NCBI RefSeq assembly: GCF_013294065.1 | Contig: NZ_JABSNM010000011.1 | Coordinates: forward strand, 62,001-126,000 | Source of the DNA: Sphaerotilus uruguayifluvii | GTDB lineage: Bacteria; Pseudomonadota; Gammaproteobacteria; Burkholderiales; Burkholderiaceae_C | Direction of reading: 5' to 3' | DNA: 64,000 bases | Part shown: positions 1 to 63,253 of the stretch, piece by piece | How the letters are laid out: every line of letters starts with the position of its first letter | How positions within the stretch are numbered: position 1 is the stretch's first letter | Notes under the pieces: generated by a model | Told to the model about the DNA's origin: nothing | What the model saw: only the letters and a program-made list of their open reading frames with translations | Databases searched by the model: none | Made by a program: the position numbers and the translations under genes

Positions 1-215
1 CTATGGAGGAGGGTGGAGGAGACAACCAGTGCTTGGGAGTGTCCGTCGTTCGAAAAGTTCTAGGGGACAGTCCCGATTGCTTGTTCGAAAGTGTACCAAA
101 GCAATTGCTGCATTGCAACGAGACCGGGCAGGCGTCCCGCGGCGGCGCCGGCCGGTCCGTGCAGGGCATCGCGGTCGCACGTCACAATCGGGCCCTTTTT
201 CGCGGAGACCGAACG

Positions 216-60337: not shown

Positions 60338-60465
60338 CGGGCAGGCTCCGGGAATGCGCGAAGGGGTGGCAGGCCGCTTCCGCGGCATGGCCGAGAGTAG
60401 ATGGCGTGCCCGCGAGACACTCCCCGATGGAGAGCCGGGAAGCCGCCGTTATTGGGGGGCGCAAG

Positions 60466-60498
60466 AAAAAACGGACCCGGGCAATCGCACGGGTCCGT
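60466..60498 (-). terminator. Rho-independent terminator with UUUUUUCUUG tail
   Basis: 9-bp stem (60471-60479 with 60490-60498), ten-base loop, then six U on the minus strand (A run at 60466-60471 on plus). It ends any minus-strand transcript coming from the fused glycosyltransferase gene or the RNA module. Confidence 0.85.
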
Positions 60499-60527
60499 GG
60501 AACGGTGCGCCGAACACCGGAGGAGAC
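60466..60527 (-). ncRNA. candidate small RNA 3' module B with anti-Shine-Dalgarno core
   Basis: Read on the minus strand: GTCTCCTCC (60527-60519), a small hairpin CGGTG/CACCG with seven-base loop (60519-60503), spacer GTTCC, a 9-bp terminator stem ACGGACCCG/CGGGTCCGT (60498-60471) and TTTTTTCTTG. The same order and several identical bases occur 1.8 kb away after flhC. It begins 145 bases after the stop of the fused glycosyltransferase gene, so it may be a separate RNA or processed from that 3' end. No promoter was identified. Confidence 0.5.
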
Positions 60528-60671
60528 TGGCAAACGTCACGGCTAACAAGCGGTGCGGAGCTCGCTCAGAACCGTACCGCCTGCAGGGTGTTTCGACTTC
60601 GGGTGTCCCGACTTGAGGGAACCTGAAAAGGGCGAGGCGTGTTTGCGGGCTTCTTCACGCCGGGCCTGGCG

Positions 60672-62126
60672 TCATGACGTGATCTGGCAGACCGACTTGT
60701 CGAAGTCCAGGCGCTCGTAGTTCAGGTCGGGCACGATCTTCTTCCAGATCTCGACGATCTGCTGCTCCTCCGGCCGCTCGTAGTCGTCGAGCAGGATATG
60801 GAAGCCGGTCGGCGCGAGCTGGGGTGCGATCGCCGCCAGGCTGGGCAGGCGCGCGAGCCTGCAGGTCTGGGCCGGCGGGCCGTCGATGATCACCACGTCG
60901 AAGCGCAGTTCGGGGTCCAGGCCCGACAGGTCGTAGAAGCGGCCGGGCTGCTCGAAGAAGCTCACCTCGACCAGCGGGCAGTGCAGCACCCGGGCGTGTG
61001 CGGCCAGACCATGGCGCTCGAAGTCCTGGCCGGTGCGCTCGGCCCAGACTGCATCGTGCTCGATCGAGTGCAGGCTGCCGCCGCGGCTGGCGATCAGCGT
61101 GGCCAGGATCTTCGAGCCGCGGCCGGAGCCGAACTCGAGCACCCGGGGCTGCGGATGGCGGTCGAGCACATCGATCATGTGCGAGAGGAACTCCGCATCG
61201 AGTGCCCAGCCGCCGGCATCTCCGAGCCAGGCGGCAGGCACCTTTTCCTGCTGGACCAGCCTCTGCAGCGCCAGGGTCCGGAACGGCATCCGCGCCAGGC
61301 GCTGCTCGGTGCTGCGGGCGATCTGCTCGGCGCGAGCGGTCTGGGCGGCCTGCAGTCGCTGCGTCAGCTGGATCAGGCTGTCCGGATGCGTCTCCAGCGG
61401 CCGGGTACAGGGCAGGGCTGGCCGCGACAGCACCAGCTTCGCGCTGGCCTGCTGGGCCGGCGAGCTCAGCGCCTGCGACGGTCCGGCCTGGTTGTGGTGC
61501 GACTGCGGATTGCTGGCGGTGTAGCGGTAGGCCTCGATCGGCAGATGCAGGTAGCGGCGGGTCTGGTCGAGCAGCGGGAAGGCGATCGCGAAGTCGCAGG
61601 CGCACTGCAGCCAGCGACCCTCGTCGTCCTGCAGCATCGTGGCGGGCACCTGCGCGAACAGCTCGGTGCGGAAGCTGAAGAAATGGCTGGTCAGCCAGCG
61701 CTGGCCGCGTGGCGCCCGGGTCGGATCGAGCGGCCCGTTGCCGCCGCGGCGACCGTCGTCAGTGACGTACTGCGTCCAGACGATGTCGTAGCCGCGTGCA
61801 TAGGCGTCGGCCATCTGGGCCAGCGCGCCGTCGTGGATCAGCTCGTCGTCGGCGTCCAGGATGGCGGTGAATTCGCTGCCGTCGCGGCCGAGCAGCTCGA
61901 AGGCGTTGGCGGCCTTGCCCTGCGGCGCCGGGTTGACCACCAGCCGATGGCGGCCGGCGAAATGGCGCGACAGCACCTCGCGGGCCTGTGCGGCCGTGTC
62001 GTCCGTCGAGGCATCGTCGACGAACACCACATGGAAGTCCTGCCAGGTCTGGCGCGTCAGGCTCAGCAGGCTGCGCGTCACGTAGCGGGCGCAGTTCCGC
62101 CCCGAGATGTAGATGGTGGCCGTCAT
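60672..62126 (-). CDS. fused family 2 glycosyltransferase and methyltransferase-like protein
   Basis: 484-residue protein with two domains. Residues about 1-225 are a GT2 glycosyltransferase: IYISGRNCARYVTRSLLSLTRQTWQDFHVVFVDDASTDDT and catalytic DADDELIHDG (DxD). Residues about 300-480 resemble a class I SAM methyltransferase: RVLEFGSGRGSKILATLIASRGGSLHSIEHD and FDVVIIDGPPAQT. A Gln/Ala-rich helical linker joins them. Location downstream of flhC suggests flagellin or surface-glycan modification. The upstream gap to flhC is 228 bases and carries RNA module A. Confidence 0.82.
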   Translation of the reverse strand: MTATIYISGRNCARYVTRSLLSLTRQTWQDFHVVFVDDASTDDTAAQAREVLSRHFAGRHRLVVNPAPQGKAANAFELLGRDGSEFTAILDADDELIHDGALAQMADAYARGYDIVWTQYVTDDGRRGGNGPLDPTRAPRGQRWLTSHFFSFRTELFAQVPATMLQDDEGRWLQCACDFAIAFPLLDQTRRYLHLPIEAYRYTASNPQSHHNQAGPSQALSSPAQQASAKLVLSRPALPCTRPLETHPDSLIQLTQRLQAAQTARAEQIARSTEQRLARMPFRTLALQRLVQQEKVPAAWLGDAGGWALDAEFLSHMIDVLDRHPQPRVLEFGSGRGSKILATLIASRGGSLHSIEHDAVWAERTGQDFERHGLAAHARVLHCPLVEVSFFEQPGRFYDLSGLDPELRFDVVIIDGPPAQTCRLARLPSLAAIAPQLAPTGFHILLDDYERPEEQQIVEIWKKIVPDLNYERLDFDKSVCQITS

Positions 62127-62264
62127 GTTCTCACTCCGCTCGGATGGCGTCCGCCGGGACGCCTCAACGCGACGAGTGGATCACGCGCGCCTGTCGGCTC
62201 ATCCGGGCATGACCTGAGCTTTTTCTGCGCTTCTGTTCATTTCGGGGGCGAGCCGGAAGACAAG

Positions 62265-62291
62265 AAAAAAGGGCCCGGCATGACCGGGCCC
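62265..62291 (-). terminator. Rho-independent terminator of flhDC
   Basis: 8-bp GC-rich stem with a five-base loop followed by six U (A run 62265-62270 on plus). It lies about 65 bases after the flhC stop. Confidence 0.88.
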
Positions 62292-62327
62292 CGAACTGCA
62301 CCGCTCGAGGTGCAAGGGAGGAGACAA
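62265..62327 (-). ncRNA. candidate small RNA 3' module A (flhC 3' UTR) with anti-Shine-Dalgarno core
   Basis: Minus-strand order: TTGTCTCCTCCC (62327-62316), hairpin TGCACC/GGTGCA with six-base loop (62314-62297), spacer GTTCG, 8-bp terminator GGGCCCGG/CCGGGCCC (62291-62271), then TTTTTTCTTG. The core is complementary to GGAGGAGACAA, an extended ribosome-binding leader. It begins 28 bases after the flhC stop, so it is either the flhDC 3' UTR or a small RNA released from it. Confidence 0.5.
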
Positions 62328-62354
62328 GAATCAGGGATCAGTGGGGCGGATCGA

Positions 62355-62891
62355 TCAGTGCAGCTGCAGCGACCCGCTGGCCTTGCCCTTGCCGGCGCGC
62401 GCCGGCGGGTTGCACAGGCCGCAGACGAAGTGCTTGGCGATCTCGTGCGGATGGGTGACGAAGCTGCCGCCGCACTTGGAGCACTTCGTCATCGTCAGCA
62501 TGCCGTTGTCGACGAACTTCACCAGCCGCCAGGCCCGGGTGATCGACAGCAGCGGTTCGAGGTTCTGCGCCTGCGTCTGCTCGAGATAGAGCTGGTAGGC
62601 CTTGATGACCGTGTCGATCTCCTCGAGCTCGGCCACCTTGTTCAGGTATTCGTGGGTGTTCAGGAACAGCGACGCGTGGATGTTGGGCTGCCAGGTCATG
62701 AACCAGTCGGTCGAGAAGGGCAGCTGGCCCTTGCTCGGCGACTTGCCGGCGACTTCCTTGTACAGGCGCAGCAGCCGCTCGTACGAGAGATCGGTCTCCG
62801 ACTCGAGCACCTGCAGGCGGGCGCCGAGCTTGATCAGCGTGACGGCGCGCTCGATCTGGCGGGCTTCGGTGAGGATGCTCTTGGTCTTCAT
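62355..62891 (-). CDS. flhC: flagellar transcriptional activator FlhC
   Basis: 178-residue subunit of the FlhD4C2 master activator of class II flagellar promoters. Conserved segments: LIKLGARLQVLESETDLSYERLLRLYKEV, GQLPFSTDWFMTWQPNIHASLFLN, and the zinc site Cys137, Cys140, Cys157, Cys160 (CSKCGG..CGLC). Length and motif order are typical. It starts 38 bases after flhD and is followed by module A. The C-terminal tail is basic. Confidence 0.95.
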   Translation of the reverse strand: MKTKSILTEARQIERAVTLIKLGARLQVLESETDLSYERLLRLYKEVAGKSPSKGQLPFSTDWFMTWQPNIHASLFLNTHEYLNKVAELEEIDTVIKAYQLYLEQTQAQNLEPLLSITRAWRLVKFVDNGMLTMTKCSKCGGSFVTHPHEIAKHFVCGLCNPPARAGKGKASGSLQLH

Positions 62892-62929: not shown

Positions 62930-63253
62930 TCAGGCGGCTTCGCGGTGGCGGCCGGCCATCAGGATGCTGGCGTGCAGGCGCGACACGCCCTCGTTGGCGG
63001 CGCTCTTGCCGTGGTTGGTCAGCAGGCCCCAGACCAGATCGTCGTCGGCGCGCATGCGGCACAGCAGCGTGTTGCACGAGGCGATCTTGAGCATCTGTGC
63101 CGGCGACAGCGTCTCCAGCAGCGCGGCGGTCTCTTCCGAGACGCCCAGGCGGAACAGGGCCTGTTCGCGGTCGGCGCGGATCAGGCTCTGCGCCAGCATC
63201 AGGTACGACAGGTTGGCTTCGCGGATTTCGGCGAGGATCTGGTCGGAATTCAT
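62930..63253 (-). CDS. flhD: flagellar transcriptional activator FlhD
   Basis: 107-residue partner of FlhC. The family pattern ILAEIREANLSYLMLAQSLIRADREQALFRLGVSEETAALLETLSPAQMLKIA is present, and the CNTLLCRMR region corresponds to the segment following the HTH-like helices. AGGAG lies before the ATG (about 63,260). Its upstream region carries a 22-bp repeat array, so its expression is probably under several regulators. Confidence 0.94.
   Translation of the reverse strand: MNSDQILAEIREANLSYLMLAQSLIRADREQALFRLGVSEETAALLETLSPAQMLKIASCNTLLCRMRADDDLVWGLLTNHGKSAANEGVSRLHASILMAGRHREAA

Follow-up and report, generated by a model that had tools for sequence, protein, structure and literature searches.

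Behind flhC, on its own strand, Sphaerotilus uruguayifluvii and many of its relatives carry a short RNA module composed of an anti-Shine-Dalgarno (anti-SD) core, a hairpin and a terminator hairpin. Two copies, modules A and B, are present in the 64,000 nucleotides of this genome analysed here (the window). Our main reading, to which we give a probability of roughly 0.6, is that the flhDC mRNA has module A as its 3′ end and that this end would act, once processed, as a 3′-UTR-derived small RNA (sRNA) repressing genes with a AGGAGACA leader. The features on which this reading is built are located in Table 1.

Table 1. Location of the modules, their parts, neighbouring genes and sister elements (window positions unless a contig is named).
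Feature	Position	Strand	Evidence or remark
Module A, flhC 3′ anti-SD double-hairpin RNA	62263..62328	minus	predicted processed form ~65 nt; R1 48.3 bits (module A itself being part of the R1 model); RF02278 32.7 bits
Module A anti-SD core UUGUCUCCUCC	62317..62327	minus	near-invariant island in 52 loci
Module A hairpin 1	62296..62315	minus	predicted fold; covariation of family helix
Module A terminator hairpin, then U-tract	62270..62292	minus	sequence and predicted fold
Module B, second copy, downstream of the glycosyltransferase gene	60463..60530	minus	R1 33.1 bits, E 2.9e-6 (module B left out of the R1 model)
Module B anti-SD core GUCUCCUCC	60519..60527	minus	
flhC (FlhC, PF05280)	62355..62891	minus	E 6.9e-86; 3′ UTR contains module A
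flhD (PF05247)	62930..63253	minus	E 6.8e-40
484-aa gene, glycosyltransferase 2 domain, between modules A and B	60672..62126	minus	PF00535 residues 6-135, E 5.3e-18
RF02278 sRNA, 5′ end	1..24, remainder beyond the window	minus	full G000:C11:61961-62024, 67.4 bits
Phasin-linked 3′ UTR modules	G000:C1:25205-25276 (L179), G000:C6:224138-224213 (L183), G000:C6:226415-226505 (L178)		

Both modules lie on the minus strand where the original prediction had placed them and share the order of parts it described, namely GUCUCCUCC, a hairpin, GUUC, a terminator and UUUUUUCUUG; the longer core claimed for module A does read UUGUCUCCUCC, and begins about 30 nt after the flhC stop. The 4.89-Mb genome contains two matches to the pattern CTCCTCC-N10..38-GTTC-N12..40-TTTTTTCTTG, which are modules A and B, and none to the reversed CTCCTCC-GTTC-TTTTTTCTTG pattern. 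By itself, GTCTCCTCC is weak evidence: the window holds three copies against 0.86 expected, three or more occur in 4 of 100 shuffles, and the third copy, at 15-23, is part of a true RF02278 sRNA. When cut at the anti-SD, each module is predicted to fold into a single-stranded 5′ core followed by two hairpins (-31.1 kcal/mol, z -3.5 for module A; -28.2 kcal/mol, z -3.4 for module B). However, module B extended by 15 nt at its 5′ side and 3 nt at its 3′ side adopts a different predicted fold in which the first hairpin is gone, and R2, a model of the phasin-linked modules described below, finds module A but not module B at E<=1. Module A is therefore the secure one of the two, and module B is a divergent extra copy local to the glycosyltransferase gene, whose product has no Pfam match outside residues 6-135.

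The linkage of the module to flhC is real. It was examined in 79 flhC loci from the closest relatives (the best 80 being kept). Of the 78 loci whose downstream sequence spans 250 nt or more, 47 have the motif TCTCCTC on the sense strand in the 250 nt that follow flhC, and none (0/78) has it on the antisense strand; it is found in 5 of 1332 other segments, and shuffles gave a mean of 1.66 and a maximum of 5. A covariance model (R1), for which the window and 33 loci supplied the 34 sequences, matches both window modules and 55 of the 79 flhC loci at E<=0.05, including 22 of the 46 loci outside the model, many of which are close kin of its members; there is no R1 match in the other 24/79. The order of parts thus recurs outside the window, on which the original prediction had staked itself, and its view of the modules as related RNAs with an anti-SD core is supported. 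In the matched loci, the module follows flhC in the same orientation and closes with its terminator, and motA comes next in 46 of 55, the sequence stretch covered containing no motA in the other 9. The modules do flank the glycosyltransferase gene, as had been pointed out, but this position reflects no special tie, the relatives carrying the module behind flhC and mostly before motA. In L053, L069 and G206, the module is located after a methyltransferase-like gene. The core starts 24-188 nt past the flhC stop (47 loci; a value of 11, from an extra site in L070, is left out of this range), and in 7 of the 47 the distance is 24-44 nt. Locus L042 has two flhDC copies, each with its own module. 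Two flhDC copies close together were seen at L019, L023, L024, L027-L031, L034, L042, L049, L062 and L063; the paired copies comprise many Roseateles, Mitsuaria, Paucibacter and Pelomonas loci and one Aquabacterium.

That the module is a conserved RNA element is near certain. It had been argued that stems which differ and still pair amount to covariation; by reading, this is true of the two copies, while covariation proper needed the relatives. Across the 34 sequences, 10 of 15 pairs changed on both sides, and the share of paired cells was 85.6%, as against 77.5% for shuffled and 25-51% for slid controls. Given that RNAalifold on a MAFFT alignment returned only 5 terminator pairs, the two-hairpin structure was set by hand and counted against these shuffled and slid controls. 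A model-fitted alignment of 58 rows, biased towards the structure by construction, gave 13/15 pairs changed on both sides and 93.4% paired. In 52 loci (the 55 matched by R1 minus three weak ones), the core is conserved at near 2 bits per position, as compared to about 0.1 in the flanks, and a U and a UUG are conserved immediately upstream of it.

The link to flhC is confined to a single clade of Burkholderiales. In a sample of 40 genomes of the family, FlhC is encoded in 26 and followed by an R1 match within about 0.8 kb in 6 of them (G000, G204, G206, G210, G225 and G231); this sample overlaps the fetched flhC loci (e.g., G204, L084), and the two sets are not independent. Across 200 genomes of the order, R1 under strict filters matches 76 places in 62 genomes, of which only the window's own lies behind flhC. 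Moreover, in 40 flhC-downstream stretches (4 from the window's family) chosen from the 69 FlhC-bearing genomes of the order, R1 has no match (0/40), and R2 has two at E<=1: L154, where a CCTCCTCCTCCC stretch precedes the terminator without a clear hairpin, and L152, where no CU core was found. CTCCTC or TCTCCT occurs in the 400 nt after flhC in 6/40 of these loci on the sense strand and 1/40 on the antisense strand. The module is also unevenly distributed among close kin: S. natans (L015), with an FlhC 98% identical, carries no more than a weak form (13.6 bits), no R1 match is obtained for Sphaerotilus MAG L016 and MAG L018, Leptothrix L017 has the full module, and many loci titled Roseateles or Mitsuaria are without it. 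By reading, the region after flhC of S. natans ATCC 13338 (L015:4580-5519) is unlike the window and has a second terminator-like hairpin, followed by AT-rich DNA with an apparent acetyltransferase remnant and a transposase start.

Sister modules are found behind phasin genes, and this phasin element is broader than the flhC-linked one. All three phasin genes (PF09361) of the genome are followed by a module. TCTCCT[CT] follows the phasin domain within 550 nt in 23 of 28 family loci on the sense strand and 1/28 on the antisense strand; the corresponding figures in the order sample are 8/25 and 1/25, with 3 of the 8 and 3 of the 25 coming from the window's family, so that 5/22 remain outside it (the counts exclude loci of less than 3,200 bases, 2/30 in the family and 3/28 in the order). 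Covariation is strong, with 18/20 pairs changed on both sides and 86.6% paired vs 70.0% in shuffles. R2, built from 25 phasin modules, has matches at E<=0.1 in 37 of 58 phasin loci, including 15 of the 36 outside the model (weakest E 0.08). It also finds 7 of the 8 flhC sources tried (26.1-34.7 bits; not L021), a stand-alone copy, L175 (23.9 bits), and the RF02278 copy (41.0 bits). The flhC and phasin groups are alike in sequence and shape, 60-80 nt being too short to decide between descent and convergence. As a third host gene, amtB is a lead with mixed counts: at least 11 of the 76 order-sample R1 matches lie directly behind amtB genes (10 by comparing coordinates and 1 from an ORF; L116, L117, L122 and L129 are among them), and R1 gives weak matches in 13 of 30 amtB loci (14-23 bits, E<=0.1), while a model-free count of the core in the 30 loci yields 4 sense vs 3 antisense. 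In another family, a CU-core module occurs 41 nt behind a porin gene (PF13609; L130, G067:C5:110863).

Rfam at gathering thresholds gives 0 matches across the window, whereas a lax scan gives 11. We rejected the idea that module A is a wholly new RNA, since both the E-value scan of the window and a whole-genome scan reveal its kinship with RF02278, to which it scores 32.7 bits against a gathering cut-off of 50; for module B, no RF02278 match is listed up to E 10. The phasin modules reach up to 44.7 bits against the same cut-off, and the only copy in the genome above it lies across the window's left edge. RF02278 had no match at E<=1 in the 8 flhC loci scanned (0/8), one of which matched RF02423 (24.8 bits, cut-off 80). 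The RNAs of RF02278 are described as the double-hairpin RNAs of Burkholderia cenocepacia (PMC5688073), and this toxic sRNA / double-hairpin group (ncS03, ncS05, NcS27, ncS62; bdhR1) resembles module A in having a 5′ UGUCUCCUCC and two hairpins, the second being the terminator. Likewise, their reported length of about 60-65 nt and predicted ribosome-binding-site targets in transport and catabolism are similar to those of module A (PMC5688073, PMC10987360). Module A, on the other hand, scores under the cut-off and is located inside the 3′ UTR of a coding gene. It possesses the single-stranded 5′ UGUCUCCUCC, where module B has AGUCUCCUCC, and the two hairpins with the second as intrinsic terminator, which module B has only in its shorter form. 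By reading, the second CU-rich motif in hairpin 1, also a feature of RF02278, is absent from the hairpin-1 loops of A and B and present in the window-edge copy. The module falls short in score and in the second CU motif and is for this reason not filed as an RF02278 member; module A probably works like one.

S17 of Bordetella pertussis is reported as an Hfq-bound relative of the RF02278 RNAs, processed by RNase E to 67 nt (S17S), with candidate targets that include 32 transporter-related genes or operons and with no impairment of the exponential growth of E. coli (PMC11722255). It shares with module A the anti-SD core, the terminator, a processed form of similar length to the one predicted for module A and transporter mRNAs among its candidate targets but, according to the same source, is intergenic and has its own sigma-A promoter (PMC11722255). 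The main text of that paper names none of flhC, flhD and phasin (PMC11722255). Another Burkholderia RNA, anti-hemB (RF02837), has in common with module A a CUCCUCCCU core and a terminator and differs in layout, its core being placed in the loop of a further hairpin; module A scores 28.3 bits, under the cut-off of 49.5, and the lax scan lists no anti-hemB match for module B. With MmgR / alpha-r8 (RF00519) of alphaproteobacteria, which has a CU-rich core as in module A, the score is 17.5 bits (E 1.7, cut-off 41), and that RNA is of another class with its own gene. CcsR-type RNAs of alphaproteobacteria also have CU-rich anti-SD-like motifs, and no entry of that name is among the 11 matches of the lax scan. 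MmgR is reported to reduce phasin levels, directly or indirectly (PMC8401924), an effect parallel to the phasin-linked modules. The original statement that no such family is known at flhDC in Burkholderiales has to be corrected, as anti-SD RNAs of the order have been described, namely RF02278 and anti-hemB (PMC5688073, PMC11722255). Among the matches listed, the titles and opening abstract lines of open-access PMC articles report no anti-SD RNA linked to flhC or phasin genes. The anti-SD kind of RNA in Burkholderiales is already known, and the subfamily tied to flhC is new.

The candidate targets were sought as AGGAGACA-N2..9-ATG, which occurs in 58 rows in the genome, a few overlapping, against 0 for the reversed control. 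The first 30 rows were taken and 29 predicted proteins scanned with Pfam; one was a 20-residue frame. Seven of the 29 are solute-binding proteins (TctC 2, SBP_bac_1 2, DctP 2, Peripla_BP_4 1), and catabolic enzymes account for at least 8 (phenol hydroxylase, vanillate demethylase-type, catechol dioxygenase-like, PQQ and aldehyde dehydrogenases, Fae, serine dehydratase and enoyl-CoA hydratase); the others include one CheB-CheR protein, two response regulators and three proteins without a family. For NcS27, targets in amino acid and carbohydrate transport and metabolism are reported (PMC10987360), and the AGGAGACA-leader candidates resemble the targets reported for NcS27 and S17 (PMC10987360, PMC11722255). 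The comparison leader TAAGGAG gave 5 rows, a number equal to its reversed control (3+2 vs 1+4), and is therefore no test of transporter enrichment among AGGAGACA leaders. The target list is a sequence match, and would be common to the other anti-SD RNAs of the genome.

A trans-acting RNA originating from the 3′ end of flhC, as originally proposed, is the best fit. The module could instead be an independent sRNA gene with its own promoter, located between flhC and motA by chance. A closely similar RNA in G216 (55.6 bits) appears to stand alone by ORF reading, with no FlhC at E<=1e-20, S17 is reported to have its own promoter (PMC11722255), and by reading the window-edge RF02278 copy shows a sigma-70 promoter-like TTGCAA-N17-TACACT, the second hexamer 66 nt before its core. 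We nevertheless consider this unlikely: the 200 nt upstream contain a sigma-70-like site scoring 9/12 or better in 0/52 flhC loci vs 5/14 stand-alone relatives picked by eye, in a scan that is insensitive in GC-rich DNA, with shuffled rates of 2.6% and 15%, respectively (the shuffle keeping dinucleotide blocks only), and a chance expectation of only about 1/52 for flhC. In addition, cores 24-44 nt past the stop would place such a promoter in or very near flhC. These two observations favour release from the flhDC mRNA. It is similarly rather unlikely that the module is the flhDC terminator and nothing else, its CU-rich stretch having no regulatory role or just loading Hfq for mRNA stability. 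The predicted fold does include a terminator (the 51 modules listed with one were chosen for their T-run) and the stem letters drift while pairing is kept; however, GUCUCCUCC is not needed for termination and yet is the most conserved part, the covarying first hairpin is retained, and an sRNA of reported activity has the same layout (PMC11722255).

Two further readings concern the core itself. In a cis-acting element, the anti-SD core would mask a ribosome binding site of its own operon (flhD, flhC, motA or the next gene) and provide feedback, and some flhC leaders do contain GGAGAC, GGAGGA or AGGAGA. However, the motif is found in the flhC leader of 15/56 loci with the module vs 9/39 without, in the flhD leader of 1/56 vs 4/35 and in the motA leader of 0/46 vs 0/18, and the window's flhC leader is without it. 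Since the motif shows no tie to the module, feedback on these three leaders was rejected, and a cis element altogether appears highly improbable. Even less credible is that the conserved letters are the Shine-Dalgarno sequence of an antisense ORF, for which their complement GGAGGAGACAAG would indeed be good: an ATG lies 3-15 nt beyond it in no more than 19 of 52 loci, the 19 ORFs in question are mostly short (at most 30 codons in 15, 73-230 in the remaining 4), and the hairpins and the U-tract suit the flhC strand. This reading was likewise rejected.

For the 3′-UTR-derived sRNA, the following course may be envisaged. A U-rich stretch lies upstream of the module A core, and an RNase E-type cleavage could occur in it, just upstream of the module, leaving an RNA of about 65 nt whose 5′ end would be the unpaired anti-SD core, as in S17S. 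Together with Hfq, this RNA would pair with GGAGGAGACA-type leaders and block ribosome binding, its main targets presumably being mRNAs for solute-binding proteins and catabolic enzymes. Switching on the motility programme would thereby damp alternative uptake and catabolism, and the sister modules behind phasin genes may do the same in carbon-storage conditions.

A wider reading, which we put forward tentatively and hold to be possible rather than probable, is that, in Burkholderiales, mRNAs indicative of a physiological state have acquired anti-SD RNAs at their 3′ ends on repeated occasions, with one shared AGGAGACA-leader target code. The hosts would be flhC for motility, phasins for carbon storage and perhaps, in some lineages, amtB for nitrogen uptake, and each host mRNA, once made, would shed a short RNA. 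If true, alternative uptake and catabolism would be under a brake that is spread over several mRNAs and carried by them. The multi-copy puzzle of RF02278-type RNAs would become testable in the form of a question: do paralogues located at the ends of different mRNAs signal distinct states to a common set of targets? Two candidate RNA families are now at hand, supported by covariation and below the thresholds of the Rfam models tested. According to a review, the role of riboregulation in the PHB accumulation of Cupriavidus necator is undeciphered (PMC8401924). In one group of environmental betaproteobacteria, the flagellar master operon would gain a second output, an RNA throttling other mRNAs, and the same would hold for phasin genes.
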